Below, one piece after another: positions 5,739 through 57,940 of a stretch of DNA of 64,000 nt. This DNA comes from Bacteroidales bacterium. GTDB taxonomy: Bacteria; Bacteroidota; Bacteroidia; Bacteroidales; F082. The stretch is taken from contig JAGCCO010000042.1 in assembly GCA_017651645.1 (NCBI GenBank), positions 124,001-188,000 of the forward strand. Direction: 5' to 3'. The notes under the pieces are model-generated. The model was given only the letters and a program-made list of their open reading frames with translations, was not told where the DNA came from and ran no database searches. The position numbers were made by a program, and so were the translations under genes. Numbering within the stretch: position 1 is the first letter of the stretch; every line of letters begins with the position of its first letter.

Positions 5739-5762
5739 GTTTAGCGGTTAGCGGTTAGCGGG
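5739..5762. repeat. Heptamer array, GGTTAGC units
   Basis: Three in-phase 7-bp units (GTTTAGC, GGTTAGC, GGTTAGC) lie between the dehydrogenase start and the end of the four-helix gene. The TAA stop of the four-helix gene (5748-5750, minus) and its last few codons are made of this array. Units of the same sequence recur on the other side of the gene at 6167-6275. Confidence 0.85.
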
Positions 5763-6137
5763 TTTGGTGGATTCCAACTGTTTTTCGAAAGAAGAATGCA
5801 AGCCGGATAACTGTTTTCCTATTGTGTTTATTCTATCTTGTTCGTTATCAAATTCTTCGTCAGTAATATACTCCAAATCATGCGCTATATCAAGTTGACA
5901 TAAGGATTCTGCGAGAGAACCGTAAGCTATCTCGATGAAGTGCATCTTCTCTTTTATCGAAAATCTACCAGAACCTTCTGCAATGTTCGATGGGACTGAA
6001 ATCACCGATCTGCGCAGTTGGTCGCCCAAAGCATAAACTTCGTATTTTGGAAACTTTTGAAGAAGCTTATAGACCTCTTTAACTAATGCCTTTGATTCTT
6101 TATATACCCGTAAATCGAAAAAAGTGAATTTGTTCAT
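5748..6137 (-). CDS. Four-helix-bundle protein (S23/IVP-like)
   Basis: A 129-residue, all-helical protein with the family hallmarks FFDLRVYKESKALVKEVYKL, the LGDQLRRSVISVPSNIAEGSGR core and FIEIAYGSLAESLCQLDIA. The family was named from ORFs in 23S rRNA intervening sequences and is structurally related to the Avd proteins of diversity-generating retroelements. Its biochemical role is unknown. It sits between a UDP-sugar dehydrogenase and the matching epimerase, and is bracketed by GGTTAGC-type heptamer arrays. Its final residues (PANR and stop) are read from the array. This placement looks like an insertion into the sugar operon. Confidence 0.85.
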   Translation of the reverse strand: MNKFTFFDLRVYKESKALVKEVYKLLQKFPKYEVYALGDQLRRSVISVPSNIAEGSGRFSIKEKMHFIEIAYGSLAESLCQLDIAHDLEYITDEEFDNEQDRINTIGKQLSGLHSSFEKQLESTKPANR

Positions 6138-6166
6138 GTTGTTTGTTTTTATGGTTATTGTTGATT

Positions 6167-6275
6167 GGTTAGCGTTTAGCGGTTAATGGTTAGCGTTGAT
6201 CGATTAGGGGTTGGTGGTTAACGTTTTTTAGATGTCGCAACAGTTACGCTAACCGCTAACCCATAACCGCTAACC
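6167..6275. repeat. Inverted pair of GGTTAGC heptamer arrays
   Basis: Eight consecutive 7-bp units (6167-6222, GGTTAGC and variants) are followed after about 25 bp by four units in the opposite orientation (6248-6275, GCTAACC GCTAACC CATAACC GCTAACC). The second arm ends exactly at the base before the stop codon of the epimerase gene (6276-6278, minus). The two arms can fold into a stem-loop in the RNA. Confidence 0.85.
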
Positions 6276-7250
6276 TCACAGATTTGCTTTATACCATTCA
6301 ATAGCCTCATTCAATCCACGGGCGAAATCATATTCCGGGTTATAACCTAGCAAACGTTTCGCCTTGGAAATATCAGCATTCGAGTGCTTGATGTCGCCGG
6401 GGCGGTCGGGACCGAAACGGGGCTCTATGTTTTTTCCCAAAGCCTTGGTCAAGTCGTAATAGATGTCGATAAGATATTCCCTTCCGCCGTAGGCTATGTT
6501 GAAGGCTTCTCCACTGGCCTCATCGGGTGCCAGACAGGCTTTCAGATTGGCCTCAATCACATTCTCGATATATGTGAAATCCCGGCTTTGCTTGCCGTCG
6601 CCATTGATGGTGGGCTGCTCGTCGTTGATGAGCATCTTGATGAACTTGGGGATAACTGCCGCGTAGGCACCGTTGGGGTCCTGCCGTCTTCCAAAGACAT
6701 TGAAATAGCGTAAGCCTATGGTCTTCAGACCATAATGTCTGGAGTATTGTTTGGCCCATTCTTCATCGGCGCGCTTACTGACGGCATAAGGTGAGAGCAG
6801 GTTGCCTTCCACGCCTTCTTTCTTGGGCAAATGCTCCTCATCGCCATAAACTGAAGAGCTGGAAGCATAGACAAAGGTCTTCACCTTGTTCTGCCTTGCA
6901 GCCTCCAGCATATTGAGTGTGCCCAGGATATTGTTCGCGCAATAGAACAGTGGCATTTCGATAGAACGTGGCACGCTGCCCCAAGCTGCTTCGTTCAGCA
7001 CATAGTCCACGCCTTCGCAAGCATGCATGCAGGTGTCCAGGTCCTTGATGTCGCCCTTGATGAATTCGTAATTCGGATGATCCAGAAAAAGGTCGACATG
7101 GGCTTGCTTGCCCGTGCTCAAGTCGTCAAGGCAACGAACCCTATAACCCATTTTCAATATTGACTCACAAAGGTTGGAGCCTATGAAGCCAGCGCCACCG
7201 GTGACGAGGAATAGTGTGTCTTTAGGAAATTGTAGTTGAAAATAAGACAT
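6276..7250 (-). CDS. UDP-N-acetylhexosamine C4-epimerase (TviC/WbpP-like)
   Basis: An extended short-chain dehydrogenase of about 324 residues. It shows the NAD-binding GGAGFIGSN, the SSSSVYGDE catalytic Ser/Thr segment and YAVSK (the YxxxK pair), and ends in the SDR-typical NPEYDFARGL. The ATG at 7250 is preferred because the longer frame would need a TTG start at 7271. By family it interconverts UDP-GlcNAc and UDP-GalNAc, or their uronic acids, at C4, feeding the dehydrogenase encoded downstream. The stop codon directly abuts a heptamer repeat array. Substrate is inferred from the pairing with the TviB-like enzyme. Confidence 0.85.
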   Translation of the reverse strand: MSYFQLQFPKDTLFLVTGGAGFIGSNLCESILKMGYRVRCLDDLSTGKQAHVDLFLDHPNYEFIKGDIKDLDTCMHACEGVDYVLNEAAWGSVPRSIEMPLFYCANNILGTLNMLEAARQNKVKTFVYASSSSVYGDEEHLPKKEGVEGNLLSPYAVSKRADEEWAKQYSRHYGLKTIGLRYFNVFGRRQDPNGAYAAVIPKFIKMLINDEQPTINGDGKQSRDFTYIENVIEANLKACLAPDEASGEAFNIAYGGREYLIDIYYDLTKALGKNIEPRFGPDRPGDIKHSNADISKAKRLLGYNPEYDFARGLNEAIEWYKANL

Positions 7251-7292
7251 AGTTATTTTAGTAATTGTCAACCCTACTTATGATATAATTGT

Positions 7293-8261
7293 TTATTTCC
7301 ACCCAAAGGGATGTCCGCTAAGCGGCAGTTTGGCCATGGGATGGTAGTCGCCGATGAGGCCGACGGGTTTGGCGTTGCGGATTTGATACACGATGTTGAT
7401 GCAACGACGGGCTTCCTCTATGCCGAAGCCGCGACCGGCCAAGATCTCCTGATAGCTCTTGGTATGCAGCTCGGTGAAGCCTTGGCTGAACTCGAACTCC
7501 TCGCCGTCGATCATGATGGTGCGGTAGGTACGCTTCTCCCCTTCCACGGCATTGGGCGGCAAGGTGTCGGCGTTGATGCTGAGGAAATAACGCACACGGG
7601 CACGTTTCAGCTCCAGATAGCCCGCCACACGGTCGTGCGAGGCCACGTGGACGATGTTCTTCTGCACGTCGCCGAAAATCCAGCTCAACATGTCGTAGAA
7701 ATGCACGCCGATGTTGGTGGCGATGCCGCCGCTCTTGTTGATGTCGCCCTTCCACGAGGCATAATACCAGTTGCCACGCGAGGTGATATAAGTCAAGTCG
7801 ATGTCATAGATTTTGTCCTTCGGGCCTTCCTCGATTTTCTTCTTTAAAGCCACGATTTTGTCGTGCAGACGGAGCTGGAAGATGGTATACGCCTTATGGC
7901 CTTGGCGTTCTTCCACTTTCTGCAAGGCGTCGATGTTCCAAGGATTGAGCACCAGAGGCTTCTCGCAGATGACATCGGCACCGAGACGCAGTCCGTAACG
8001 GGTGTGGGCGTCGTGCAGGTAGTTGGGTGTGCAGACCGTCACGAAATCGATCTGCTTGCCTTCGTCCCTCAGCTTGGTGTTGTGGCGGTCGAAGAGCTCC
8101 TGCTCGGTGAAGAAGGCAGCCTTGGGGAAGTAGCTGTCCATGATGCCGACGCTGTCGCTTTTGTCGTAGGCGGAGACTAGGTCATTGCCTGTGTCTTTGA
8201 TGGCCTTCAAGTGGCGTGGGGCGATGTATCCCCCCACGCCAATGATTGCAAAATTTTTCAT
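7293..8261 (-). CDS. WlbA/WbpB-type Gfo/Idh/MocA oxidoreductase
   Basis: A 322-residue NAD-dependent oxidoreductase. The N-terminus FAIIGVGGYIAPRHLKAIKD, the block VTVCTPNYLHDAHTRYGLR, and EKPLVLNPWNID (carrying the catalytic Lys) closely follow WlbA/WbpB. These enzymes oxidise C3 of UDP-GlcNAcA so that an aminotransferase can install a 3-amino group on the way to UDP-2,3-diacetamido uronic acids. The required UDP-GlcNAc dehydrogenase and an aminotransferase and acetyltransferase are present in the same operon. The aminotransferase sequence looks more FdtB-like, so completion of this branch is not certain. The ATG overlaps the nagB stop (TAATG). Confidence 0.87.
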   Translation of the reverse strand: MKNFAIIGVGGYIAPRHLKAIKDTGNDLVSAYDKSDSVGIMDSYFPKAAFFTEQELFDRHNTKLRDEGKQIDFVTVCTPNYLHDAHTRYGLRLGADVICEKPLVLNPWNIDALQKVEERQGHKAYTIFQLRLHDKIVALKKKIEEGPKDKIYDIDLTYITSRGNWYYASWKGDINKSGGIATNIGVHFYDMLSWIFGDVQKNIVHVASHDRVAGYLELKRARVRYFLSINADTLPPNAVEGEKRTYRTIMIDGEEFEFSQGFTELHTKSYQEILAGRGFGIEEARRCINIVYQIRNAKPVGLIGDYHPMAKLPLSGHPFGWK

Positions 8262-9052
8262 TACAGATTATTCTTTTCGATATCCTTAAAGTACTTGACG
8301 GTCTGATACTTGAGCTCATCACAGGCTTCGTCATCGCAGACGATGATGCCCTTCGGATGCATCTGCAGCACGCTTACCGTCCACATCTGGCTCACACCAC
8401 CTTCGATGGCATGAGCAATGGCGCGGGCCTTGTTGTGGCCGTTGGCCAGGATCATCACCTCACGGCTGTCCATGACGGTACCTACACCCACGGTGAGGGC
8501 GGTCTTCGGCACCTTATTAATATCGTGGTCGAAGAAGCGGGAGTTGGCGATGATGGTGTCGGAAGTCAAGGTCTTCACACGGGTGCGTGAGGTCAGGGAG
8601 CTGCCGGGCTCGTTGAAGGCGATGTGGCCATCAGGACCGATGCCGCCCATGAAGAGGTCGATGCCACCATAGCTCTTGATCTTGGCCTCATAGCGGGCGC
8701 ATTCGGCCTCGAGGTCTTCGGCATTACCGTTCAGGATGTTGACGTTTTCCTTCTTGATATCGATGTGCTTGAAGAAATTGTTCCACATGAAACTATGGTA
8801 GCTCTCCGGATGGTCTTCGGGGATGCGGACATACTCGTCCATGTTGAAGGTGACCACATTCTTGAAGGAGACCTTGCCTTTCTTGTAGAGGCGGACCAAC
8901 TCCTTATAGGTGCCCAAGGGGGTGGAACCGGTGGGGAGACCGAGGATGAAAGGCTTCTTCGCCGTAGGCTTGAAAGCGTTGATACGTTCGACAATGTGGT
9001 TGGCTGCCCAACGCGACATGGCGTCGGCGTTTTTTTCGATGATTACTCTCAT
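8261..9052 (-). CDS. nagB: Glucosamine-6-phosphate deaminase
   Basis: A 263-residue protein, the usual length for NagB. Recognisable blocks are [15 protein letters not shown] (phosphate site), FNMDEYV with the catalytic Asp, and [20 protein letters not shown] with the catalytic His. It converts glucosamine-6-phosphate to fructose-6-phosphate and ammonia in the cytoplasm. Here it lies between the WlbA-type gene and the DUF4954 gene inside a nucleotide-sugar operon. It may therefore balance the hexosamine pool for UDP-GlcNAc synthesis rather than serve amino-sugar catabolism. The operon role is inferred and the enzyme call is firm. Confidence 0.93.
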
Positions 9053-9067
9053 TTTGTATAGTTTTAA

Positions 9068-9186
9068 GTTATTCAGTTGTTCAGTTATTCAGTTGCTTCT
9101 GGCTGCTGGCAGTTCCAACCCTTGTTTATGAGATCGCGGGTCTGTGCCCGCGATGAGGCTCGGGGCGTGGGACTGCCAGAGGCCAT
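9068..9186. repeat. Octamer array and nested REP hairpin
   Basis: An array with TTCAGTT spaced at 8 bp (TTCAGTTG, TTCAGTTA, TTCAGTTG; about 9074-9097) is followed by a REP-type palindrome at 9130-9159 (GCGGGTCTGTGCCCGC core). The palindrome is enclosed by a second inverted pair, CTGGCAGT near 9106-9113 and ACTGCCAG near 9171-9178. It fills the spacer between nagB and the DUF4954 gene. Confidence 0.7.
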
Positions 9187-9191
9187 AAGCA

Positions 9192-18912: not shown

Positions 18913-19620
18913 ATGATGATACTCTGTTTGGAAACAGCGACACCTGTCTGTTCGGTCGCACTCAATTCGGCTTGCTGCACGTTGGCGTTGCGTGAGACTG
19001 AGGGACAAAATGCACATTCTGAGAAGATTACCAACTTCATCAAAGCGGTGATGGAGGAGGCGGGCATCGGCTATTCACAGCTGGATGCCGTGGCCGTAAG
19101 TCAAGGTCCGGGCTCTTATACGGGTCTGCGCATCGGCGTCAGCACGGCAAAGGGCATCTGCTATGCCGCCGACCTCCCGATGATGGCCATCGACACCTTG
19201 GAGGCCATGGCATACGGCATGAAAGAGAAGTTGGGCGGCCAATTGGATCCCGACAACCTGCTCATCCCCATGATCGATGCCCGAAGGATGGAGGTATATG
19301 CCTCTGTTTTCGATGCCGACTTGCAGAAAATCAACGATACGGCGGCGCTTGTCATCGATGAGAATTCCTTTGAAGAATTGCGGAAGGACCATCGGCTCTG
19401 GCTCTTCGGCGATGGTGCGCCAAAACTCAAGAAAGTATTTGAAAACCAACAAAATATCAACATCGTAGAAGGCTTCAGACCTTCGGCAGCGTATATGCGT
19501 CGTTTGGCGGAACAAGCCTTGATGAAACAACAGTTTGTTGATGTGGCTTATTTTGAGCCGTTTTATTTGAAGGATTTTATTGCGGGGAAGCCTCATGTGA
19601 AGGGATTAGTTGATAATTGA
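18913..19620 (+). CDS. tsaB: tRNA t6A synthesis protein TsaB
   Basis: About 235 residues of the TsaB/YeaZ type. ILCLETATPVCSVAL is the ASKHA phosphate-1 region, followed by SQGPGSYTGLRIGVSTAKGI, the family signature. TsaB partners TsaD and TsaE in making t6A37 on ANN-decoding tRNAs. The ATG at 18913 is preferred because the upstream part of the frame lies in the promoter. The last codons (GTT GAT AAT TGA) are read from a TTGATAA-type heptamer array. Confidence 0.93.
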   Translation: MMILCLETATPVCSVALNSACCTLALRETEGQNAHSEKITNFIKAVMEEAGIGYSQLDAVAVSQGPGSYTGLRIGVSTAKGICYAADLPMMAIDTLEAMAYGMKEKLGGQLDPDNLLIPMIDARRMEVYASVFDADLQKINDTAALVIDENSFEELRKDHRLWLFGDGAPKLKKVFENQQNINIVEGFRPSAAYMRRLAEQALMKQQFVDVAYFEPFYLKDFIAGKPHVKGLVDN

Positions 19621-19629
19621 TAATTGATA
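19609..19629. repeat. Heptamer array overlapping tsaB stop
   Basis: Three 7-bp units (GTTGATA, ATTGATA, ATTGATA) supply the last two residues and the stop codon of tsaB. They end 4 bp before the peptidase gene. Confidence 0.8.
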
Positions 19630-24765: not shown

Positions 24766-25989
24766 ATGATTAACGTTATTGGACTCGGCTATATCGGACT
24801 GCCGACGGCATTGATGATGGCTTCGCACGGTGTGGAAGTCATCGGAACAGACTACAACAAAGAACTGGTTGCTACCCTTAATGCGGGCAAGACCACTTTC
24901 AAGGAAAAGGGATTGGATGAACTCTTTGCCGCCGCATTGAAAGCGGGCATCAAATTCACCACGGAATACCAAAAGACGGACATGTATATCGTCTCCGTGC
25001 CCACCCCTTACGACAAGTTCAGCAAGAAGGTGGACGCTTGTTATGTGGTAGCCGCCGTGAAGGAAGTGATGAAGGTTTGCCCGAAAGGAGCCACTGTGGT
25101 TGTTGAGTCGACAGTCAGTCCAGGCACGATGGACAAGTTTGTGCGCCCCGTGGTGGAAACCAATGGCTTCAAGATCGGTGAAGACATCCATCTCGTCCAT
25201 GCCCCTGAGCGCATCATCCCGGGCAACATGGTCTACGAACTGCTGCATAACAACCGCACCATCGGTGCCGATAGCCGTGAGATTGGTGAAAAGGTGAAGA
25301 AGTACTATGCTTCGTTCTGCCAAGGCGAGATCGTGGTGACCGACATCCGCACCGCCGAGATGACCAAAGTGGTGGAGAACACCTACCGGGCCGTCAATAT
25401 CGCCTTTGCCAACGAGTTGAGCCGCATCTGCCGTCACGACAACATGGACGTGTATGAAATCATCCGTATCTGTAACATGCATCCGCGTGTAAACATCCTG
25501 CAGCCTGGTCCCGGCGTGGGCGGCCATTGCATTAGCGTCGACCCTTGGTTCCTTGTGGGCGACTATCCCCAACTGGCCAAGGTGATTGACGAGTCGATGA
25601 AGACCAACGATACACAACCTGTGTTTGTGCTGGAACGCATCTACGAAATCATGAAGGCGCACAACATCACCGATAGCCGCCGTGTGGGTCTCTATGGTAT
25701 CACCTACAAGGAGAACGTGGATGACATTCGTGAAAGCCCGACCTTGCAGATGCTTGATATCCAGAAACGCCATTTGGCCCGTCCGCTGAAGAGCTTTGAC
25801 CCGTTCTTCACCGACAAGGAGATCATGCCGAACCAGATTCTTGATTTCGACCAATTCTTGTCGGAGATTGACATGGTGGTTATCATGGTGAAGCATGATC
25901 ATATCAAGCAGAACTGGGACAAGTTGAAAGGTAAGGTGATTTTGGATTGTCATAATATTTGCCCTTTGGAGGGAGCGTATCATATTTAG
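24766..25989 (+). CDS. wecC: UDP-N-acetyl-D-mannosamine dehydrogenase
   Basis: 407 residues. The N-terminal NAD loop is GLGYIGLPTALMMASHG. The active-site Cys is in GPGVGGHCISVDPWFLVG, and the UDP-binding end has YGITYKENVDDIRESP. The WF in DPWFL and overall pattern fit WecC rather than the TviB type at 4.4 kb. It oxidises UDP-ManNAc to UDP-ManNAcA, using the product of wecB encoded just downstream. The TAG stop sits at the edge of a heptamer repeat array. Confidence 0.92.
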   Translation: MINVIGLGYIGLPTALMMASHGVEVIGTDYNKELVATLNAGKTTFKEKGLDELFAAALKAGIKFTTEYQKTDMYIVSVPTPYDKFSKKVDACYVVAAVKEVMKVCPKGATVVVESTVSPGTMDKFVRPVVETNGFKIGEDIHLVHAPERIIPGNMVYELLHNNRTIGADSREIGEKVKKYYASFCQGEIVVTDIRTAEMTKVVENTYRAVNIAFANELSRICRHDNMDVYEIIRICNMHPRVNILQPGPGVGGHCISVDPWFLVGDYPQLAKVIDESMKTNDTQPVFVLERIYEIMKAHNITDSRRVGLYGITYKENVDDIRESPTLQMLDIQKRHLARPLKSFDPFFTDKEIMPNQILDFDQFLSEIDMVVIMVKHDHIKQNWDKLKGKVILDCHNICPLEGAYHI

Positions 25990-26029
25990 TTTAGAGTTCA
26001 GAGTTTAGAGTTTAGAGTTGGTCAGAGTT
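25988..26029. repeat. Heptamer array, AGTTTAG units
   Basis: About five in-phase 7-bp units (AGTTTAG, AGTTCAG, AGTTTAG, AGTTTAG, AGTTGGT) lie between wecC and wecB. The wecC stop codon overlaps the first unit. The complementary, inverted units occur inside wecB at 26692-26788. Confidence 0.85.
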
Positions 26030-26047: not shown

Positions 26048-27307
26048 ATGAAAAAAATCATACTCGTCTTCGGTACGCGTCCTGAGGCCATCAAGATGTG
26101 TCCTTTGGTCAAGGAGTTCCAAAAGTATCCACAGGACTTTGAAACCATCGTCTGTGTGACGGGACAACATAGGGAAATGTTGGATCAAGTTCTCCGTATC
26201 TTCGAGGTTCAGCCTGACTACGATCTCAATATCATGAAGCAGGGACAGGACCTGTATGACGTGACCGCCCGAGTGCTGGTAGGCATGCGCGATGTGCTGA
26301 AAAAAGCACAACCTGATGTGGTGCTTGTCCATGGCGACACCACTACTTCCACCGCTGCCGCCCTTGCGGCTTTCTATCAGCAAATACCCGTGGGACACGT
26401 GGAGGCTGGTTTGCGTACCCATAATATCTATAGCCCTTGGCCGGAGGAGATGAACCGTCAAATCACTGGACGCATTGCCACCTATGACTTCGCCCCTACC
26501 CCATTGAGCAAGGCTAATCTTCTAAATGAAAATGTGAGCGAAGACAAAATTTTCGTGACAGGCAATACTGTGATAGATGCTCTACACATGGTGGTCGATA
26601 AGCTCAAGAGCAACAAGGCTCTGGCCGATGAGCAAGTGAATGTTCTCAAAGCCGCCGGCTACGACGTTACTCGTTTAACACAAACCATTGACTCTAAATT
26701 GACTCCGTCGAATGCTTCGCATTTCTCAACTCTAAACTCTAAACTTACCACTGACTCTAAACTCTCAACTCTAAACTCTCAACTAAACCAGCGCAAGCTG
26801 GTATTAATAACCGGCCACCGTCGCGAGAATTTCGGCGAAGGATTCATCAGCATGGTCACTGCCATGAAAGACCTCTCTGAAAAGTATCCCGAGGTTGACT
26901 TCGTGTACCCTATGCACTTGAACCCCAATGTGCGCAAGCCGATTCATGAGGTGTTTGGCGAAGACCTGACGGTATATAAAAACTTCTTCTTCATCGAGCC
27001 ACTCCAATACTTGGAGTTCGTCTACCTCATGGAAAAGAGTTATTTGGTGCTGACCGACAGCGGCGGCATTCAGGAAGAAGCTCCTGGCTTGGGCAAGCCT
27101 GTCTTGGTGATGCGCAACACCACCGAACGTCCCGAGGCACTGGACGCTGGCACGGTGAAGTTGGTGGGCACCGACCACGACCTCATTGTCAGTGAAGTGA
27201 GCCGCCTGATTGAGGATCCATCCTATTACGACAAGATGAGCAAGGCCGTGAACCCTTACGGCGATGGCTTGGCTTGCAGTAGAATCGTCAAATCATTTAT
27301 TGGATAA
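26048..27307 (+). CDS. wecB: UDP-N-acetylglucosamine 2-epimerase with repeat-encoded insert
   Basis: 419 residues against about 375-390 for the family. The start MKKIILVFGTRPEAIK, the HGDTTTSTAAALAAFY block, GHVEAGLRTHN, ITGHRRENFGEG, and DSGGIQEEAPGLGKPVLVMR are all intact. Residues about 211-247 (between the two Rossmann halves) are Ser/Leu/Asn/Thr-rich and are read from an in-frame heptamer array. This places GHRREN around 256-261, about 40 residues late. The enzyme makes UDP-ManNAc for WecC. All recognisable active-site blocks flank the insert, so activity may be kept. Confidence 0.92.
   Translation: MKKIILVFGTRPEAIKMCPLVKEFQKYPQDFETIVCVTGQHREMLDQVLRIFEVQPDYDLNIMKQGQDLYDVTARVLVGMRDVLKKAQPDVVLVHGDTTTSTAAALAAFYQQIPVGHVEAGLRTHNIYSPWPEEMNRQITGRIATYDFAPTPLSKANLLNENVSEDKIFVTGNTVIDALHMVVDKLKSNKALADEQVNVLKAAGYDVTRLTQTIDSKLTPSNASHFSTLNSKLTTDSKLSTLNSQLNQRKLVLITGHRRENFGEGFISMVTAMKDLSEKYPEVDFVYPMHLNPNVRKPIHEVFGEDLTVYKNFFFIEPLQYLEFVYLMEKSYLVLTDSGGIQEEAPGLGKPVLVMRNTTERPEALDAGTVKLVGTDHDLIVSEVSRLIEDPSYYDKMSKAVNPYGDGLACSRIVKSFIG
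26692..26788. repeat. Heptamer array inside wecB
   Basis: Units TCTCAAC and TCTAAAC recur at 7-bp spacing (26724-26744 and 26756-26783), preceded by a small hairpin AATGC-TTC-GCATT (26711-26723). The array is in reverse orientation to the one upstream of wecB at 25988-26029. It adds codons without a stop or frameshift. Confidence 0.88.
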
Positions 27308-30710: not shown

Positions 30711-31190
30711 ATGATCAGATTCAGCACATTGGATGTGGTGATGCCGCCCATTGACCCGCAGCGCGTTAAGGCCTGGATCGGTGAAGTGGTTGAGAAGCAC
30801 GGCAAGACGATAGGGGAGTTGTACTACTATTTCTGCAGCGATGAACGACTGTTAGAGATCAACAGAGAGCGTCTCGGCCACGACTTCTATACTGACATCG
30901 TCACCTTCCCGCTGACGGATTGTGAGACGATACTTTCGGGTGAGTTCTGCATCAGCGTTGACCGGATTAAAGAGAATGCCGAGACCTTTGGCCGCAGCTA
31001 TGAGAGCGAGTTACACCGCGTCATCATCCATGGCGTGTTGCACCTCATCGGCTTCGACGACCTGACGGATGAGGAGGAGAAAGAGATGAGAGAACAGGAA
31101 GAAATATCTTTGGAATTATATAAGACTATGGCCTCTGACTATGACTATGACCACCCCTATTGTAAAAGTGGTCATTGTCATTGTCAATAG
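30711..31190 (+). CDS. ybeY: rRNA maturation endoribonuclease YbeY with repeat-derived tail
   Basis: 159 residues. LYYYFCSDERLLEINRERLGHDFYTDIVTFPL and the metal site HGVLHLIGFDD (two His, with Asp in place of a third His, as I recall for Bacteroidota members) identify YbeY, which processes 16S rRNA ends and helps ribosome quality control. The family fold should end near residue 140. The last 18-20 residues (DYDYDHPYCKSGHCHCQ) are read from a heptamer-rich hairpin at 31124-31198 that also includes the stop codon. Confidence 0.9.
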   Translation: MIRFSTLDVVMPPIDPQRVKAWIGEVVEKHGKTIGELYYYFCSDERLLEINRERLGHDFYTDIVTFPLTDCETILSGEFCISVDRIKENAETFGRSYESELHRVIIHGVLHLIGFDDLTDEEEKEMREQEEISLELYKTMASDYDYDHPYCKSGHCHCQ

Positions 31191-31198
31191 CCATAGTC
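31124..31198. repeat. Inverted array at the ybeY 3' end, GACTATG units
   Basis: The left arm (31124-31152) and right arm (31170-31198) are each 29 nt and complementary at 24 positions, with a 17-nt loop. The arms are built of 7-bp-spaced units such as GACTATG and TCATTGT. The left arm and part of the right encode the ybeY C-terminus. The same units appear in the leader of the EnvC-like gene. Confidence 0.85.
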
Positions 31199-37681: not shown

Positions 37682-39184
37682 ATGTCAGAAAACAGATTAG
37701 GCTCCCTGGCGAAGCAAACCGCCATTTACGGCTTGAGCAGCATCATCGGCAGGTTTTTGAACTACTTGCTGGTGCCGCTGTATACCTATAAAATCGCCGC
37801 TGAATCGGGTGGGTATGGCATCGTTACCAACCTGTATGCCTACACCGCCTTGCTCCTCGTCATCCTGACCTTCGGCATGGAGACGACTTTCTTCCGCTTT
37901 TCGAACAAAGAAGGTGTCGACCCCAACAAAGCCTTTTCCACCTCAGGACTCACCGTGGGGCTTGTAAGTCTAATCTTTGTGATTCTGGTCAGCATTTTCC
38001 TCAAGCCTATCTCCAATGCCTTGCATTATGCCTCGCATCCCGAATATGTTGAAATCATGGCCATCATTGTGGCTTTGGACGCCTTCCAAGCCATCTTGTT
38101 TGCCCGTCTGCGTTACGAAAACAAGGCCATTAAGTTTGCCACATTAAAGCTGTTATTTATCTTCCTCAACATAGGACTGAACCTATTCATTTTCCTAGTC
38201 GCTCCTGGCTTGAAAGAGAGCCATCCAGCCTTGATGGGTTGGTACGAAAACAGCTATCAAGTCGGGTATATCTTCATCGTCAACCTCATCTGTACGGGTT
38301 TGATTACCCTCGGTTTTATCCCTGAAATCAAGAAGTTGCGCTTCGGCATCGACCGCGAGATGTTGAAACAGATGCTGCATTACACCTGGCCTTTGCTGCT
38401 CTTAGGTTTGGCAGGCATCCTCAACCAAGTGGCCGACAAGATCTGTTACCGGTTCATCGTTCCAGGCGAAGAAGGTGACGTGCAGTTGGGCATCTATGGC
38501 GCTTGTGTGAAAATCGCGATGATCATGGCGATGATTACCCAAGCCTTCCGCTATGCTTACGAGCCATTTGTCTTTGGCGGCAAGCGCGACACAGCCGACA
38601 AGGAGACCCAGGCCAAGGTGATGAAATACTTCATCATCTTCACCTTATTGGCTTTCCTCGCCGTGGTGATGTATATGCCCATTTTGCGGCACATCATCAA
38701 GTCCGACTATTGGGAAGGCCTGCGCGTGGTGCCCATTGTGATGATGGCCGAGATCTTCATGGGCATTTATTTCAACCTCTCGTTCTGGTATAAACTCATC
38801 GATGAGACTTGGTGGGGCGCTATCTTTTCGGCCATTGGCTGTGTGGTATTGTTGGCCATCAATTTCATCTTTGTGCCGAAATACGGCTACATGGCTTGCG
38901 CCTGGGGCGGTTTTGCGGGCTATGGCACTTGTATGGTTTTGTCGTACTTAGTAGGGCAGAAAAAGGCGCCAATACCCTATAATCTGAAATCTGCGTTCAT
39001 CTATTTTGCTGTCGCCTCGGCTTTGTTCTTCGTGCAAAAATACCTCCATTTTGAAAGCATCGCTTTGACTTTGGTCGTCAACACAATATTGCTGTTGGTT
39101 TTCTTCGCCTTCATCTGCTGGATGGAGAAAGACTTGGTTAAAGGCGTCGGTTCTTTTGTCAAAAGAAAAACCTCCAAATCCTGA
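37682..39184 (+). CDS. Oligosaccharide flippase family protein
   Basis: 500 residues, polytopic, beginning GSLAKQTAIYGLSSIIGRFLNYLLVPLY, which is the N-terminus of polysaccharide-export flippases common in Bacteroidota. About 12-14 hydrophobic helices follow. Such proteins flip lipid-linked glycans. This one is not next to glycosyltransferase genes, lying with dut and a TPR gene downstream, so its lipid substrate is unknown. A 39181-39224 spacer of TTTGAAT-like 7-8 bp repeats separates it from dut. Confidence 0.82.
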   Translation: MSENRLGSLAKQTAIYGLSSIIGRFLNYLLVPLYTYKIAAESGGYGIVTNLYAYTALLLVILTFGMETTFFRFSNKEGVDPNKAFSTSGLTVGLVSLIFVILVSIFLKPISNALHYASHPEYVEIMAIIVALDAFQAILFARLRYENKAIKFATLKLLFIFLNIGLNLFIFLVAPGLKESHPALMGWYENSYQVGYIFIVNLICTGLITLGFIPEIKKLRFGIDREMLKQMLHYTWPLLLLGLAGILNQVADKICYRFIVPGEEGDVQLGIYGACVKIAMIMAMITQAFRYAYEPFVFGGKRDTADKETQAKVMKYFIIFTLLAFLAVVMYMPILRHIIKSDYWEGLRVVPIVMMAEIFMGIYFNLSFWYKLIDETWWGAIFSAIGCVVLLAINFIFVPKYGYMACAWGGFAGYGTCMVLSYLVGQKKAPIPYNLKSAFIYFAVASALFFVQKYLHFESIALTLVVNTILLLVFFAFICWMEKDLVKGVGSFVKRKTSKS

Positions 39185-39222
39185 ATCTTTGAATTTTGAA
39201 TCTTTGAATCATTAAATCTTGA
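39181..39222. repeat. Short-unit array before dut
   Basis: GAATCTTT and GAATTTT-like units recur at 7-8 bp spacing from the flippase stop codon to 3 bp before the dut ATG. The array touches the stop codon of the upstream gene, as at other loci. Confidence 0.7.
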
Positions 39223-39224
39223 AT

Positions 39225-39710
<486 letters not shown>

Positions 39711-52207: not shown

Positions 52208-52234
52208 CAACATTGAACCCATAATACATTCATC

Positions 52235-52993: not shown

Positions 52994-52998
52994 ATTTC

Positions 52999-54129
52999 AT
53001 GAACAACTATTGCATCATCATGGCCGGTGGCATCGGAAGCCGTTTCTGGCCCCTCAGCAAGGACAATTATCCGAAGCAATTCCTTGATATATTAGGCACG
53101 GGAAAGAGTTTCATCCGTAGCACATACGAGCGTTTCAGCCCTGTCATCCCCGACGAGAACTTCCTCGTGGTGACGAACAAAGCCTACAAACAACTCGTTT
53201 TGGAGCACCTGCCCATGCTGCGTCCTGACCAAGTGCTTTGTGAACCTGCCCGCCGTAATACAGCCCCTTGCATCGCCTACGCTGCCTATCATATCCAAAG
53301 CCGTTGCACGGATGCCAACATTGTCGTCACTCCTGCCGATCATTTGGTGACCAACGAAGTGGAGTTTCAGCGCATCATTCGTTTGGGCTTTGATTTCTTG
53401 ACCAAGAACCAAAACGCCTTGTTGACTATTGGCATCAAGCCCAGCCGACCTGAGACGGGGTATGGTTATATTCAAGTACCTAAAGAGAATGCTGAATGTA
53501 GAATGCTGAATGTAGAATGCAAAAAGGATTCTGATAAGAATAATTCAGCATTCAGCATTCATAATTCAGCATTTCCGGAGGTGGTAAAAGTGGAAATGTT
53601 CAAGGAAAAACCCAATTACGAAACGGCTTTGAAGTTCGTCGCTGAAGGCAACTTTTTCTGGAACAGCGGCATTTTCCTTTGGACACTTGACGGCATCATG
53701 AAGGCGTTCAAGCAATACTTGCCGGAGATGGTTGAAGTCTTCGAAAAAGGCATCTACAACTTCGGTACACCTGAGGAGCAGGACTTCATCAACGACCATT
53801 TTGTGGACTGTCCCAACATCAGCATCGATTATGGGGTGATGGAGAAGTCGCCGAACACTTACACTATCCCTGCCGACTTTGGTTGGAGCGACATCGGCAC
53901 TTGGGGTTCGTTGTTCACCCATGCCAAAAAAGACGACCTTGGCAATGCTCTGCGAGGCAAGGTGGTCTCAGTGGACAACAAAAACACTATCATCAATATA
54001 GAGGAAGGCAACGAAGCCGTGGTAGAAGGCTTGGAGGATTATCTCGTGGCTTTCCGTGATCATTCATTGCTAGTGTGTAAGCTCAGTGATGAGCAACAGA
54101 TTAAAGTTTGGATTGAAGGATTGAAATAA
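52999..54129 (+). CDS. manC: Mannose-1-phosphate guanylyltransferase with repeat-encoded insert
   Basis: 376 residues. MAGGIGSRFWPLSKDNYPKQFLDIL is the signature-containing N-terminus, TPADHLVT follows, and NSGIFLWTLD and DFGWSDIGTWGSL mark the C-terminal end of the fold. It makes GDP-mannose from mannose-1-phosphate and GTP. Residues about 163-192 are read from an inverted heptamer array placed in phase between IKPSRPETGYGYIQV and VVKVEMFKEKP. The ATG at 52999 is chosen since the upstream open frame lies inside the DUF3298 gene. Confidence 0.92.
   Translation: MNNYCIIMAGGIGSRFWPLSKDNYPKQFLDILGTGKSFIRSTYERFSPVIPDENFLVVTNKAYKQLVLEHLPMLRPDQVLCEPARRNTAPCIAYAAYHIQSRCTDANIVVTPADHLVTNEVEFQRIIRLGFDFLTKNQNALLTIGIKPSRPETGYGYIQVPKENAECRMLNVECKKDSDKNNSAFSIHNSAFPEVVKVEMFKEKPNYETALKFVAEGNFFWNSGIFLWTLDGIMKAFKQYLPEMVEVFEKGIYNFGTPEEQDFINDHFVDCPNISIDYGVMEKSPNTYTIPADFGWSDIGTWGSLFTHAKKDDLGNALRGKVVSVDNKNTIINIEEGNEAVVEGLEDYLVAFRDHSLLVCKLSDEQQIKVWIEGLK
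53487..53573. repeat. Inverted heptamer array inside manC
   Basis: The left arm (53487-53520) is GAATGCT, GAATGTA, GAATGCT, GAATGTA, GAATGC. The right arm (53543-53573) is ATTCAGC, ATTCAGC, ATTCATA, ATTCAGC, ATT. The arms are complementary around a 22-bp loop, and the whole 87-bp element is a multiple of three. Confidence 0.9.
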
Positions 54130-54139
54130 TACTTGTGCC

Positions 54140-54895
54140 GTGGAAAATCAGCCGTTAGTTTCTGTTATCATGCCATGCTACAACATGGAGAAGTTCATTG
54201 CCTACACTATAGAATCGGTGCAGCGACAGACTTATCCACATTGGGAGCTTCTTATCGTTGATGACGCATCGACGGACAGGACGGCTGATATTATCAAAAG
54301 TCATCAAGAGCAAGATGACAGGATTCGGTTTTTCGTTAAATCCCAGCACTCCGGCATTGCTGACACCCGAAATCGATGCTTGAAAATGGCCAATGGCCAG
54401 TTTTTGGCTTTTCTCGATTCCGATGACCTCTGGCATCCGGAAAAAATTGAACAGCAGTTACAATTCATGACCGAGCGAAACATTGGTTTCAGTTATTCAA
54501 GCTACGATTGCGTTGACGAGGCGGGAAAACCATTGGGGAAAACCATCAAATCGATAGGAGATTTGAACTACGAAGCCTATCTTCGAAACACTATCATCGG
54601 TTGTTCCACCGTCATGGTCGACAAAACCATTGTCGGTGAAGTCGTCGTTCCTAATTTCCGTACCAGTGAAGACACCGCCACATGGCTCAATATCCTGAAA
54701 AGAGGTTTTCTGGCTTATGCCATTGAGCAGCCTTTGACTTCTTATCGAATCCGGCAACACTCGGCCAGTTCCAACAAACTGAAAGCCTCTTCTGACCTTT
54801 GGAGAGTGTACCGAAAAAACGAGAAACTGCCTCTGCTTAAAGCCCTTGCTTGTTTTAGTAGCTACGCTTTCAACGCCATCAAAAAACGCCTGTGA
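54140..54895 (+). CDS. Family 2 glycosyltransferase
   Basis: 251 residues, starting at GTG. VSVIMPCYNMEKFIAYTIESV, VDDASTDRTADIIK and FLDSDDLWHPEKIE (DxD) are the GT-A fold motifs. It transfers a sugar to the growing repeat unit at the cytoplasmic face of the membrane. Donor and linkage cannot be read from the sequence. It lies 10 bp after manC and overlaps the next gene. Confidence 0.9.
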   Translation: MENQPLVSVIMPCYNMEKFIAYTIESVQRQTYPHWELLIVDDASTDRTADIIKSHQEQDDRIRFFVKSQHSGIADTRNRCLKMANGQFLAFLDSDDLWHPEKIEQQLQFMTERNIGFSYSSYDCVDEAGKPLGKTIKSIGDLNYEAYLRNTIIGCSTVMVDKTIVGEVVVPNFRTSEDTATWLNILKRGFLAYAIEQPLTSYRIRQHSASSNKLKASSDLWRVYRKNEKLPLLKALACFSSYAFNAIKKRL

Positions 54896-55758
54896 TGCAA
54901 AGTCACAATCAGTGGAAATATTATCTCTATAGGAATGCTTGGCGTTTTGCCGGACCTCCCCACGAAGAACAAAAGCTCAGTCAAGAGGCTTACAGCAACC
55001 TTCTTAGTATGGGTGGATTGTTGGTAAGGAATACGTATGATTTTGATTGTCAAGAAAAAACTAGCTTTTGGTATGTCATCAAAGATTCGTTCAATGGATT
55101 GGATGAGTTTTCCTCAAACGAGAGGAACAAAATCAGGCGTGCAGAGAAAGCTTTGGTTTTCAAAAGAATAGATATCGATTTATTGAAAACAAAAGGCTGG
55201 AGCATCCTGAAAGCCACGTATGAGGATTATGCCGTTTCGGACCGGGATATGGATGAAACTGTGTTTTTGAATTATCTTTCGGAGTGTGAAAAACAGGATT
55301 TCGACTATTGGGGCATTTTTGATCAAGACCGACTTATCGGTTTTTGTACCGTATGGTTATGGCTTTCAGAGACTTGGGAATATGGACTTGTTGGTAACAA
55401 ATCTAACTATAAGCTCAACAGCTGTGAATATGGTCTTATCGGTATCTTACCTGAATATAAGCACAACAACACTTATCCTTATTATGGGCTTTTCTACAAG
55501 ATGAACGAGTATTATTTGGGCGAAAAAAAGTACCGTTATGTGGCTGATGGTGCCCGATCCATTACTGAGCACTCGCACATTCAAGACTTTCTCATGCAAA
55601 ACCTCAACTTTCGAAAAGCTTATTGTCAACTTGAGGTGCACTATAAATGGTGGATGAAGATTGCGGTCAAAATGTTGTATCCATTCAGAAAAATCATAAC
55701 TTTGCCGCGGATTAAGGCGATTCTCAACATGGAGGCCATGCAACGTGGAGAAAAATAG
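54895..55758 (+). CDS. FemAB/GNAT-like aminoacyl- or acyltransferase
   Basis: About 287 residues. Features suggest an N-acyltransferase fold: RNKIRRAEKAL, DFDYWGIFDQDRLIGFCTVW, and PEYKHNNTYPYYGLFYKMN, which resemble FemAB/GNAT-like proteins of exopolysaccharide loci. It probably decorates a glycan or lipid-linked precursor with an amino acid or acyl group. The family assignment is uncertain. It starts at the ATG overlapping the GT2 stop by 1 bp and is followed by the sugar transferase with a 14-bp overlap. Confidence 0.5.
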   Translation: MQSHNQWKYYLYRNAWRFAGPPHEEQKLSQEAYSNLLSMGGLLVRNTYDFDCQEKTSFWYVIKDSFNGLDEFSSNERNKIRRAEKALVFKRIDIDLLKTKGWSILKATYEDYAVSDRDMDETVFLNYLSECEKQDFDYWGIFDQDRLIGFCTVWLWLSETWEYGLVGNKSNYKLNSCEYGLIGILPEYKHNNTYPYYGLFYKMNEYYLGEKKYRYVADGARSITEHSHIQDFLMQNLNFRKAYCQLEVHYKWWMKIAVKMLYPFRKIITLPRIKAILNMEAMQRGEK

Positions 55759-56350
55759 ACACAACATAGGATTCTTCTTCAAATGGTGCTTCGACCGTGT
55801 CGTGGCATTAGTAGGCCTTGTCCTTTTGTTTCTTCCATTGCTGCTTATCGCTATTCTCATCAAATTCGATTCTAAAGGTCCTGTTTTCTTTATGCAGTGG
55901 CGTATTGGAAAAGACGGCAAACCTTTTAGAATCTGCAAGTTTCGCACCATGCATATGCAAGCGCAAGGCGATTCCATCACCACGGCCAATGATCCGCGGG
56001 TGACTCGGATAGGTCGTTGGTTGCGCCACAGCAAGGTGGATTGTCTCACCGAGCTTGTCAATGTCTTTATTGGACAGATGAGCTTCGTGGGGCCGCGTCC
56101 CGATGTGCCGGGTTATGCCGACCAACTTCAAGGCGACGACCGTCGTATCTTGCAACTTCGTCCAGGCATCACGGGTCCCGCCAGCATCAAATACCGTAAC
56201 GAAGAGGAGCTGCTCGCGCAACAAGCTGACCCGAAATGGTACAATGACAATGTCATTTGGCCTGACAAAGTGAAAATCAACTTGGATTATTTAGACCATT
56301 GGAGTTTCTTCGGTGATATCAAGTTGATTTTCAAGACCGTGTTTCATTAA
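55745..56350 (+). CDS. Undecaprenyl-phosphate sugar-1-phosphate transferase (short WcaJ/PglC type)
   Basis: 201 residues from a GTG. One hydrophobic helix (about 18-38), then FRICKFRTMHMQ, RIGRWLRHSKVDCLTELVNV and MSFVGPRPDVPGYADQL form the bacterial sugar transferase catalytic domain. It lacks the N-terminal multi-helix part of full WcaJ. It would start lipid-linked repeat-unit synthesis by moving a sugar-phosphate from NDP-sugar to undecaprenyl phosphate. Confidence 0.9.
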   Translation: MEKNRHNIGFFFKWCFDRVVALVGLVLLFLPLLLIAILIKFDSKGPVFFMQWRIGKDGKPFRICKFRTMHMQAQGDSITTANDPRVTRIGRWLRHSKVDCLTELVNVFIGQMSFVGPRPDVPGYADQLQGDDRRILQLRPGITGPASIKYRNEEELLAQQADPKWYNDNVIWPDKVKINLDYLDHWSFFGDIKLIFKTVFH

Positions 56351-56401
56351 TCCCAGCCCCAGAGGGGCGACAGGAGCTAAAGCAGACGATGAAGTCCCTC
56401 C

Positions 56402-56438
56402 TTTTTGCATGTGGTCGGCTGCATGCAGTTGACCACAT
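56402..56438. terminator. Hairpin after the sugar transferase, convergent region
   Basis: ATGTGGTC/GACCACAT (about 56409-56438) encloses CTGCATGCAG. It is flanked by T5 on the left and A7 on the right, so it could terminate from either strand. Confidence 0.55.
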
Positions 56439-56474
56439 AAAAAAACCCCGTATTATTGGGGAAATAATACGAGG
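56439..56474 (-). terminator. Rho-independent terminator of tRNA-Asn
   Basis: On the minus strand a 12-bp stem (arms 56463-56474 and 56446-56457, one G-U) with a 5-nt loop is followed by seven U residues. It begins 33 bp after the tRNA end. Confidence 0.8.
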
Positions 56475-56507
56475 CCAAAAAATTAATAACATGAAACATA
56501 AAAATTG

Positions 56508-56581
56508 CGCCCCCTTCAGGACTTGAACCTGAGACCCCCTGATTAACAGTCAGATGCTCTGACCAACTGAGCTAAGGAGGC
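56508..56581 (-). tRNA. tRNA-Asn (GTT)
   Basis: A 74-nt cloverleaf. The acceptor is GCCTCCT/AGGGGGC with discriminator G. The D-arm is GCTC/GAGC, the anticodon loop CTGTTAA (GUU), and the T-arm TCAGG-TTCAAGT-CCTGA. CCA is not encoded. A TATTTTTG promoter element lies about 35 bp upstream on the minus strand. Confidence 0.95.
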
Positions 56582-56615
56582 TGCACAACGTCACAGAACT
56601 TTCGTTTTGCGGCTG

Positions 56616-56623
56616 CAAAAATA
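56616..56623 (-). promoter_or_regulatory. -7 promoter element for tRNA-Asn
   Basis: TATTTTTG on the minus strand, 34 bp upstream of the tRNA 5' end. Confidence 0.5.
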
Positions 56624-56749
56624 CGGCTTTTTCTATTACCGACAATATTTTTCGGACAAAAATTTTCAAATATTTTGTATCTACCTGAAAATCAACATGG
56701 ATTTTCCAGTGTATGTTAGAGATTCCCTGCGGGGAATTTATTTTTTTCC

Positions 56750-56757
56750 TATCTTTG
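56750..56757 (+). promoter_or_regulatory. -7 promoter element for the adenosine kinase gene
   Basis: TATCTTTG, an exact match, lies 21 bp before the ATG at 56779. A REP-like hairpin (ATTCCC/GGGGAAT, about 56722-56738) lies just upstream. Confidence 0.55.
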
Positions 56758-56778
56758 CCACTCTAAAAGCAAAATACT

Positions 56779-57765
56779 ATGCAACAAAAGAAAATCCTCG
56801 GAATAGGAAGCGCGCTTGTCGACATATTGAGCCAGATTCCCAATGAACAAGTGCTGCAAGAACTCAACCTCCCAAAAGGAAGCATGACCTATGTCAACAC
56901 CTCTGATATCGTCAAAATCGGCGATCATATCCACCAGAAGTACGGTAGCCAACGTGCCAGCGGCGGCTCAACGGCCAACACGATGTGCGGCTTGTCGCGA
57001 CTTGGCGTTGAAACCGGTTTCCTAAGCAAAATCGGCAAAGACGAAGTGGGCGAGTTTTTCAAGAAACAAATGATTGACTGTAACGTGAAACCTCAGCTGC
57101 TGACTACCGACACGCCTTCAGGTCGCGTCATCGCTATGGTGACTCCCGACGGCGAGCGCACCTTCGCCACTTGCCTCGGCGCCGCCATCGAGATGGGTCC
57201 TGACGATATCCATCCCGACCTCTTGGAGGGCTGGGATATCTTCTACGTAGAAGGCTATCTCGTGGCTAATCCTCCTTTGCTCGAGAAAGCCCTCGACACC
57301 GCCTACGCCAAAGGCATGACAATCGCCATGGATATGGCTAGCTACAACGAAGTACAGAAACACCGAGACCTGGTACTCCGTCTTTTGGAAGACAGGTTGG
57401 ACATTGTGTTTGCCAACGAACAAGAAGCCCAAGTGCTGACGGGATTGGAAGATCCCGAAGAAGCCTTGCATTACATCGCCGAACGCTGCCAAATCGCCGT
57501 GGTGAAGGTGGGTGCCAAAGGGGCATTCATCCAACGTGGCAACGAAGTCGTCACCGTGCCACCCATGACAGCCAATGTGATTGACACCACAGGAGCTGGT
57601 GACTTATGGGCCTCAGGATTCCTCGCTGGACTCGTAAAAGGTGAAGACCTCCAGAAATGCGGCATGATGGGCGCTATCGTGGCCAAGAATATCATTGAAG
57701 TCGTAGGGGCTAAGATGGATGACGAACGTTGGGAAAACATTCACAAGGCCATTTCGCTTTTATAA
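56779..57765 (+). CDS. PfkB-family kinase, adenosine kinase-like
   Basis: 328 residues. GIGSALVDILSQIPNEQVLQ, RASGGSTANTMCGLSRLG and DTTGAGDLWASGFLAGL (anion hole and catalytic Asp) are the ribokinase-fold signatures. This branch is usually annotated as adenosine kinase in Bacteroidota. It phosphorylates a nucleoside or sugar with ATP. Its stop codon is directly followed by an inverted repeat element. Confidence 0.85.
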   Translation: MQQKKILGIGSALVDILSQIPNEQVLQELNLPKGSMTYVNTSDIVKIGDHIHQKYGSQRASGGSTANTMCGLSRLGVETGFLSKIGKDEVGEFFKKQMIDCNVKPQLLTTDTPSGRVIAMVTPDGERTFATCLGAAIEMGPDDIHPDLLEGWDIFYVEGYLVANPPLLEKALDTAYAKGMTIAMDMASYNEVQKHRDLVLRLLEDRLDIVFANEQEAQVLTGLEDPEEALHYIAERCQIAVVKVGAKGAFIQRGNEVVTVPPMTANVIDTTGAGDLWASGFLAGLVKGEDLQKCGMMGAIVAKNIIEVVGAKMDDERWENIHKAISLL

Positions 57766-57940
57766 TCACAAAACCCACAAAACTTTCAAAACCAATTTAT
57801 TATGATGCATTACAACGACTCCCAACCGAGTCGTCGTTGTAATGCTGTAAAAGTTTGGACTGCATACAAAGGATGCGTAGGAAAGGAGCCAGTTGGCGAC
57901 TTTCTTAGTAAGAGTTTTGAGGGTTTTGAAGGTTTTGTGA
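57766..57940. repeat. Nested inverted-repeat element between adoK-like gene and fusA paralog
   Basis: The outer arms (57766-57793, 57914-57940) consist of CAAAACC- and GGTTTTG-type units spaced 9 bp apart and are about 80% complementary. An inner perfect 12-bp pair GCATTACAACGA/TCGTTGTAATGC (57807-57845) sits between them. The element starts the base after the kinase stop. No convincing gene is present in the spacer to 58051. Confidence 0.75.

Follow-up and report, generated by a model that had tools for sequence, protein, structure and literature searches.

The short-period repeat arrays scattered over the window analysed here, i.e. over the whole 64-kb stretch of DNA, are for the most part probably the inverted arms, or the arm-only or open reading frame (ORF)-less remnants, of small gene cassettes that resemble the intervening sequences (IVSs) of 23S rRNA genes and lie outside rRNA. 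The 7-bp arrays would belong to cassettes with a gene for a four-helix-bundle protein of the IVS protein (IVP, or S23) family, and the 9-bp element at 57766 to a cassette type with a GxxExxY (PD-(D/E)XK) gene. Our data show the association of arrays with such genes, a period that in the genus depends on the ORF, filled, empty and ORF-less states at one and the same host site, arm identity between cassettes and stand-alone copies, and compensatory changes. Judged from its sequence, the window looks like DNA of uncultured rumen-type Bacteroidales; by MnmG, its closest relatives, with 92% identity, are metagenome-derived genomes that bear the labels goat abomasum and RUG, the latter presumably standing for rumen.

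IVP cassettes in the window and in the genus

The IVP cassette of the window consists of the following parts:

5739..5762, + strand: three copies of TTAGCGG, downstream arm of the IVP cassette; overlaps the 3' end of the IVP ORF and is inverted relative to 6246-6275
5748..6137, - strand: IVP (S23) ORF, between the inverted GGTTAGC arrays at 5739 and 6167-6275
6167..6275, no strand given: upstream arm of the IVP cassette, with an inner array at 6167-6220 and an outer one at 6246-6275 that is itself a hairpin (fold z -4.3)

By profile matches (PF05635, 6e-36; TIGR02436, 8e-34; PDB 2gsc, 1e-16) the ORF is a member of the 23S-rRNA-intervening-sequence protein family. The cassette is located between an epimerase and a UDP-sugar dehydrogenase gene, outside rRNA, and its outer arm abuts the epimerase stop codon at 6276-6278. 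The predicted fold of the whole cassette includes a terminal stem between the arms. Among 13 readable relatives (7 of 20 loci lacked both anchors and were left out), the same gap is empty in nine, measuring 0-38 bp versus 546 in the window, in one relative a small hairpin forms part of an 88-bp insert, and three carry another insert, the ORF of which is listed as PF13366 in two and PF13366-like by eye in the third (L393). Comparison of an empty junction, AATTTGTAAACAATT (L401), with the filled one, AATCTGT-cassette-CTGTAAACAATT, suggests that the cassette was inserted into the host stop codon and that its first bases restored the TGA stop. CTGT flanks the window cassette on both sides and several empty sites have a single CTGT or TTGT. 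The flanking CTGT may be a target duplication; this is one site only, and one case proves little.

Proteins with PF05635 resemble the Avd protein of diversity-generating retroelements (PMC10053308). The ORF of the window matches a bAvd-like model at 1e-7, under the cut-off of that model, and scores 37.9 bits with the retroelement Avd model, which has a cut-off of 80; since, in addition, no reverse transcriptase was found among 20 scanned of the 123 listed window ORFs, a diversity-generating retroelement was rejected. A group I or group II intron or another known RNA family was likewise rejected, because Rfam at gathering threshold returned a tRNA as sole match in the window and, on eight cassette loci, only the tRNA in L310, which is more than 500 bp away from the ORF.

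The genus-level set comprised 99 genomes, which were searched for array families and for cassette genes. PF05635 matches are present in 96 of them, with at most 12 per genome. The IVP loci were a non-random sample made up of the 30 best matches and 40 further, hand-picked places, and L336, which had no ORF or flank, was dropped before counting; GxxExxY, GIY-YIG and ParE loci were the 30 best matches each, and the GxxExxY loci L414, L421 and L433 were also dropped. Flanks of 200 bp were scored, with thresholds of at least 14 for inversion and at least 12 for lag 7. When the flanks of the 30 best IVP loci were read, inverted heptamer arrays were seen around nearly all. The inversion threshold was reached at 66 of 69 IVP loci versus 9 of 926 control ORFs and none of the 30 ParE loci, and the lag-7 threshold at 47 of 69 versus 55 of 926 and again none of the 30. 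The 69 loci form 22 host-site clusters; the median inversion is at least 14 in 21 and the median lag-7 score at least 12 in 14 of these. The arms of one IVP gene pair with each other (at least 14) in 95.7% of cases, those of different genes in 10.2%, orthologs still being included. The latter figures are from the all-locus version of the comparison, because the own-versus-cross arm test within one site was spoilt by host sequence in the flanks, the cassette lying in both orientations at one site. Such a case is the site represented by L281-L296, which is filled in both orientations (L281 and L282 versus the others), as if the inverted arms permit flipping. At 58 of 66 IVP cassettes, no more than 12 bp separate a host stop codon from the outer edge of the arm, a count that is partly built in because many units contain stop codons.

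Inverted flanks of the same strength surround 18 of 27 GxxExxY and 20 of 30 GIY-YIG loci, and in this genus the period of the arms follows the ORF: it is 7 with IVP, 9 with GxxExxY, and GIY-YIG arms have none. In the autocorrelation of IVP arms, lag 7 reaches 0.67 and lag 14 reaches 0.61, lag 9 reaches 0.50 in GxxExxY arms, other lags in both remain at 0.18-0.31, and GIY-YIG arms yielded no short period. At single loci, a lag-9 score of at least 12 was found at 8 of 27 GxxExxY loci and a corresponding lag-7 score at none. The GIY-YIG arms are two palindromes, ..CTTCGACAGGCTCAGGGACC.. and ..GTCATTGCGG.. (L443-L472), both known as common repeats; the framing of small GIY-YIG genes may explain why these palindromes recur. 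Nine control genes with strongly inverted flanks were scanned and turned out to be two GxxExxY PD-(D/E)XK genes, one GIY-YIG gene, one IVP gene, four others and one without a family. Regarding the family of the window element at 57766, a GxxExxY (PF13366) ORF lies directly beside the match in 6 of its 30 best loci, and 8 of its 60 best-ranked places are within 300 bp of a listed PF13366 match. None of 70 loci from two other array families (30 GAATGCT, 40 GACTATG) has an IVP, GxxExxY or GIY-YIG ORF. From these counts, the 57766 element is best read as an ORF-less relative of a GxxExxY cassette.

Host-site states, stand-alone hairpins and shared units

One host site between the same two genes could be read in 18 of 30 fetched loci, 12 without anchors having been left out. 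Five of the 18 carry complete IVP cassettes, five are empty with three to five bases from stop to start, and eight hold inserts without ORF, which include hairpins of TTAGC, TCAGC, GTAAGC and GGCTTCT units, a GAATGCT/TTTGAATC array and a CTTCGACAAGCTCA hairpin. At this site, genomes have different units but share the period of 7 bp and the inverted arrangement. Hence, the proposal in the first-pass annotation of a mechanism that acts on period rather than on sequence is borne out in so far as units change within an unchanged period and layout at one site; in this genus, however, the period is tied to the ORF, and units are shared by loci and genomes.

The consensus of the stand-alone GACTATG copies shares 30 of 32 positions of its left arm with an arm of the IVP cassette L321. 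Scores of this consensus are 50 with L321, 48 with L322 and 44 with L317, and a further eight loci score above 20, the maximum seen in shuffles; by sequence, the stand-alone copies resemble cassettes without ORF. An alignment of the window copy with 22 fetched copies was analyzed for covariation, using a structure derived from the same alignment on which it was tested: 97.6% of cells pair, compared with at most 52% in slid pairings, and both sides have changed in 5 of 24 pairs. The cells changed on both sides number 16 versus 6.4 in shuffles, and none of 500 shuffles reaches 16.

The unit sequences had been described as locus-specific, which was not confirmed, since the same units are present at several window sites and most of them again in relatives. 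GACTATG is found at both 31124 and 41880, GGTTAGC at 4569, 5741 and 6167, and AGTTTAG/AGAGTTG at 25988, 26724 and 39655, and AAACTCT is the most frequent unit among 55 period-7 arrays including those of the window. With a 1.9-kb query that includes the arrays at ugd and wecB, 6 to 72 matches were obtained in each of 12 relatives, and among the matches listed most fall on arrays. Copies of the 75-bp GACTATG hairpin at 31124 occur at unrelated places in many of the 99 genomes; a 401-bp query that includes ybeY matches 60 of them, and of this family 40 copies were fetched, part of them from one host site. The GAATGCT hairpin and the CAAAACC element have matches in 47 of 99 genomes each. The GGTTAGC unit is nearly private to this genome because its hairpin has a match in one of the 99 genomes, and that a partial one. 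A locus-specific origin of the arrays was therefore rejected, units being common to loci and genomes. The number of cassettes does not simply track the array families, as G041 and G028, with 12 and 11 IVP matches, have zero matches to the GAATGCT query.

Short-period arrays of the window

The window was searched for arrays with Tandem Repeats Finder and a lag scan, and the chance level for exact runs was obtained from 30 order-4 Markov copies of the window. At period 7, seven exact runs with at least 10 matches were found versus about 0.1 expected, at period 6 four versus about 0.1, and at periods 4, 5 and 8-12 none in the window. A chance origin of the arrays was rejected on the basis of the period-7 runs. 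Period-7 arrays amount to 9.4 per 100 kb in the window and to 0 to 5 in 11 relatives (1.19 Mb), densities that are an unfair genome average because the contigs of the relatives were chosen for holding matches; among periods 4-13, period 7 ranks first in 8 of the 11. The first-pass annotation had named twelve places with arrays and regarded a lack of excess over shuffled sequence, or a restriction to this window, as evidence against its proposal; arrays were found at, or a few bases from, all twelve coordinates, in excess of expectation and in relatives as well. Its further statement that most arrays are inverted was not confirmed, as this layout is found at 5 of 12 sites in the window; among 73 clean period-7/8 arrays in the window and the 1.19 Mb of relatives, 4 have an inverted partner of at least 14 bases and 19 a direct continuation. 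The sites at 31124 and 41880 are palindromes of mixed 6/7-bp units rather than clean 7-bp arrays, and 57766 has period 9. The number of units varies between species, as had been suggested for checking; for instance, the hairpin at 31124 is one 6-bp unit longer than in L021 and L054. The top five inverted repeats with arms at most 200 bp apart in the window are those at 6167, 31124, 41880, 53487 and 57766 (start 57760). Besides the cassette, the following array sites are present:

4569..4587, no strand given: short TAGCGGT array, unit family as in the cassette arms
9067..9097, no strand given: period-8 CAGTTATT array
19609..19629, + strand: TTGATAA array, located where a TsaD-family (tsaB-like) ORF ends
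25988..26029, + strand: direct AGTTTAG array between ugd and wecB
26692..26788, + strand: AACTCTA/AACTCTC arrays in frame within wecB
31124..31198, + strand: stand-alone GACTATG-family palindrome that makes up the C-terminal tail of ybeY (fold z -9.0)
39181..39222, + strand: TGAATCTT array ahead of dut
39655..39710, + strand: AGAGTTG/ATAATTG array spanning the dut stop codon
41880..41994, + strand: GACTATG-type palindrome, the second of its kind, which lies in frame within an M23 peptidase ORF (N-terminal part; fold z -6.1)
53487..53573, + strand: GAATGCT hairpin in frame within manC (fold z -6.5)
57766..57940, + strand: period-9 (CAAAAC plus three bases) palindromic element without ORF

Five of these sites, at 26692, 39181, 41880, 31124 and 25988, match IVP cassette flanks well. 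The array at 26692 scores 30 with a flank of L344 (random segments at most 14), that at 39181 scores 27 with a flank of L350 (at most 16) and that at 25988 scores 19 (25 random segments at most 12); the match of 41880 calls for caution, since a score of 29 was obtained with one random segment, probably via host homology. Weak matches were obtained for 5739 and for 39655 (15, random segments at most 13). The arrays at 9067, 19609 and 53487 have no match among the sampled cassette arms, the best match of the first being a ParE control flank. Strong folds are predicted for the stand-alone hairpins (z -4.3 to -9.0) but not for the linear arrays. Several arrays are part of proteins: the wecB and manC ORFs run through theirs, a wecB ortholog (L009) being without the insert, and the hairpin at 31124 adds about 22 residues to the C-terminus of ybeY. 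This tail, KTMASDYDYDHPYCKSGHCHCQ (window 31124-31190), is rich in Asp, His and Cys and variable between species.

Some further features were noted beside the arrays. Arrays with differing units stand side by side in a single gap at L091:9549-9642, L125:10883-10945 and L147:83-276, as if new cassettes land on old remnants. REP-like (repetitive extragenic palindromic) palindromes, TGTAGAGACG..CGTCTCTACA, with GTAG/CTAC ends recur in relatives (L117:3566-3648, L118:8871-8940, L098:9718-9755), and in L032 the gap between dut and a TPR gene holds about five near-identical copies of GCACCCCATCGGGGTGCCACATCGGTAG. The window itself contains a 32-bp direct repeat in two copies at 61038-61098 (TTTAGAAAAGTTTCCCCAATTTTAGGAAAGAT) and two genes of the UDP-glucose/GDP-mannose dehydrogenase family (4436-5713 and 24766-25989).

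Wider distribution, known systems and rival explanations

Outside the genus, PF05635 was found in 116 of 148 genomes drawn from Bacteroidota. From this phylum sample the 30 best IVP loci were taken and 28 measured, L371 and L375 having been dropped for lack of an ORF or flank; an inversion score of 14 or more was obtained at 11 of them and one of 11 or more at 17, compared with 1 of 17 neighbour genes for both thresholds, lag 7 was found at 4 of 28 IVP loci and 3 of 17 neighbours, and several loci have 8-9 bp units by eye (e.g. L353, L369). The IVP protein of the window also matches 23 plasmid records, 21 of them named as cyanobacteria. In a sample of eight records, heptamers (lag 7) accompany the IVP gene in 7 of 8 versus 6 of 132 control ORFs, which were taken from four plasmids of the sample, and inverted arrays in 5 of 8 versus 2 of 132, the arrays of L387 being direct. 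The similarity to cyanobacterial heptanucleotide repeats that had been pointed out for the window thus fits, as IVP genes on Nostoc, Calothrix and Anabaena plasmids are framed alike. On plasmids of Anabaena and Pseudanabaena (L382, L387) the IVP gene lies between cas6 and cas4, and in L381 between ribonucleotide reductase genes.

Short tandemly repeated repetitive (STRR) sequences of cyanobacteria are heptanucleotide tandem repeats and, like the arrays met here, consist of tandem 7-bp units dispersed in the genome; to our knowledge, they have been known since about 1990 without an explained origin. In REPIN/RAYT systems (REP doublets forming hairpins and REP-associated tyrosine transposases), a Y1 transposase gene is flanked by hairpins and accompanied by many dispersed hairpins without a gene. 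The combination of a hairpin-flanked gene with many gene-less copies is shared by our cassettes, but their gene is an IVP, PD-(D/E)XK or GIY-YIG one instead of a Y1 transposase and their arms are short-unit arrays; no RAYT was found among the scanned cassette ORFs, which match PF05635, PF13366 or PF01541, RAYT or transposase genes elsewhere in the genomes not having been searched. Terminal inverted repeats are a feature in common with miniature inverted-repeat transposable elements (MITEs). Rickettsia palindromic elements are palindromes inserted in frame in protein genes, as are some of the hairpins here, while sequence families and hosts differ; we know of no ORF that goes with them. The closest likeness is to the IVS of 23S rRNA, which in Coxiella is a 428-nt element of unsettled origin that contains an S23 ORF, is closed by a 28-bp stem and is excised by RNase III (PMC4990558). 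Common to both are an S23/IVP four-helix-bundle ORF between complementary, stem-closing ends, a size of a few hundred bp and a proposed selfish or mobile origin (for the IVS, PMC4990558). In contrast to the IVS, the cassettes described here are situated outside rRNA, between protein genes at stop codons, their arms are tandem 7-bp units that vary by site, and many copies lack the ORF.

The nearest precedent for a changing unit in a fixed layout is the P6b stem of the Nostoc tRNA-Leu intron, which is built of one of two 7-nt motifs, one having repeatedly replaced the other (PMC4476775); the arrays here differ in that they frame IVP genes, a link that the available text of PMC4476775 does not describe. 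The first-pass annotation was not aware of a Bacteroidota counterpart, but TAACTGA arrays have been published from five Bacteroidetes as well as from Beggiatoaceae and cyanobacteria (PMC4679880). These are also heptamers between genes with a patchy distribution across phyla; they differ by one fixed unit, a position mostly before start codons, a possible role as binding site and the rarity of inverted pairs (PMC4679880). An inverted heptamer pair is shown for Xanthomonas in PMC4692102. No published link of IVP, GxxExxY or GIY-YIG genes to such arrays was found in a search that largely excluded subscription literature, and a search by DNA words gave, among the matches listed, unrelated titles and abstracts.

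How such cassettes could work may be outlined as follows. Their insertion would take place in intergenic positions, in most cases immediately at the stop codon of the gene upstream, and their arms would pair in the transcript or in single-stranded DNA with the ORF in the loop, as in the IVSs of 23S rRNA. Deletion between the arms would leave a stand-alone hairpin and loss of one arm a solo array, and units could expand or be replaced by slippage, the arms being constrained to stay complementary. The encoded protein may recognise its own arms and would so fix the period, and together with host enzymes it might move the cassette; a ring-forming, nucleic-acid-binding protein could recognise a hairpin in which units follow each other every 7 bp.

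Several observations speak against interpreting the arrays as parts of cassettes. Most clean arrays are without an inverted partner (4 of 73 have one), three window sites (9067, 19609, 53487) match no sampled cassette arm and none of the 30 GAATGCT-family loci has any of the three ORFs. Genome G030 lacks a PF05635 match yet has GACTATG and GAATGCT copies, although it may be incomplete. Five of the nine scanned control genes are outside all three families, the lag-9 score is reached at only 8 of 27 GxxExxY loci, and across Bacteroidota only 11 of 28 IVP loci reach the higher inversion level and there is no lag-7 excess. The start of arms at stop codons is to some extent built in, the covariation measure of further pair types, one of five, is without excess (12 vs 12.1), the RNA fold of the whole cassette is only mildly better than shuffles (z -2.1), and cassette presence and absence was seen between species only, no movement having been observed.

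Among the rival explanations, it seems unlikely that the hairpins are REP- or MITE-like elements moved in trans by a transposase, e.g. a RAYT, with the IVP, GxxExxY and GIY-YIG genes as captured passengers. The many dispersed hairpins without ORF, the use of the same insertion sites by differing hairpin families and the other genes among the strongly flanked controls are in line with this idea, whereas it is difficult to reconcile with a separate arm grammar for each of three ORF families, and four of the nine control genes belong to just these families. Quite unlikely, in our view, are hairpins that serve as selected RNA signals at gene ends, for transcript-end protection, attenuation or translation coupling, through which the IVP protein would regulate. 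The location at stop codons, the compensatory changes and the stable hairpin folds would be expected of such signals, but many relatives have empty gaps at the sites, both unit sequences and families are exchanged at one of these, and copies are embedded in frame in enzyme ORFs.

Plain slippage was rejected, because the period depends on the ORF carried and units are common to loci and genomes, and slippage templated on a hairpin, the generator initially suggested for the window, does not predict an ORF-dependent period either. A slippage process biased to 7-bp units by the length of the polymerase contact and acting in weakly selected intergenic DNA, where fold-back template switching creates the inverted pairs and IVP genes merely sit in slippage-prone gaps, is to be regarded as improbable. 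In one survey, most genomes have heptamers as their most frequent class of long simple repeats, and the idea of a polymerase contact has been published (Mrazek 2007, cited in PMC4679880 and PMC4692102); the varying unit number, the majority of clean arrays that are not inverted and the phylum-wide lag-7 counts, which are no higher at IVP genes than at neighbours, also agree with slippage. On the other hand, the period in the genus is set by the ORF carried (7, 9 or none), ParE genes, which are small too, are without such flanks (0 of 30), and units are common to loci and genomes, with arms matching between unlinked copies.

Returning to the IVS-like cassettes, a wider and clearly more tentative interpretation, to which we give somewhat less than even chances, is that Bacteroidota and Cyanobacteriota carry minimal mobile cassettes outside rRNA, with an arm grammar set by the encoded protein, and that the cyanobacterial heptanucleotide repeats and the stem of the Nostoc tRNA-Leu intron are debris of the IVP branch. 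Each cassette would then consist of one small ORF (IVP, PD-(D/E)XK or GIY-YIG) between inverted arms with period 7, period 9 or a plain palindrome as grammar, and the protein would read its own arms as an RNA or single-stranded DNA hairpin and thereby spread cassettes as well as ORF-less hairpins. Apart from this wider view, the IVS-like cassettes as such offer the long-known heptamer repeats of bacteria a candidate source, open to testing for each gene, and the widespread, unexplained genes annotated as four helix bundle protein a likely function within a mobile cassette. Moreover, they provide a reason for the recurrence of some palindromes across genomes, since each of these seems to serve as frame for a small nuclease or IVP gene of its own, and they point to a route for the in-frame entry of repeats into enzymes.

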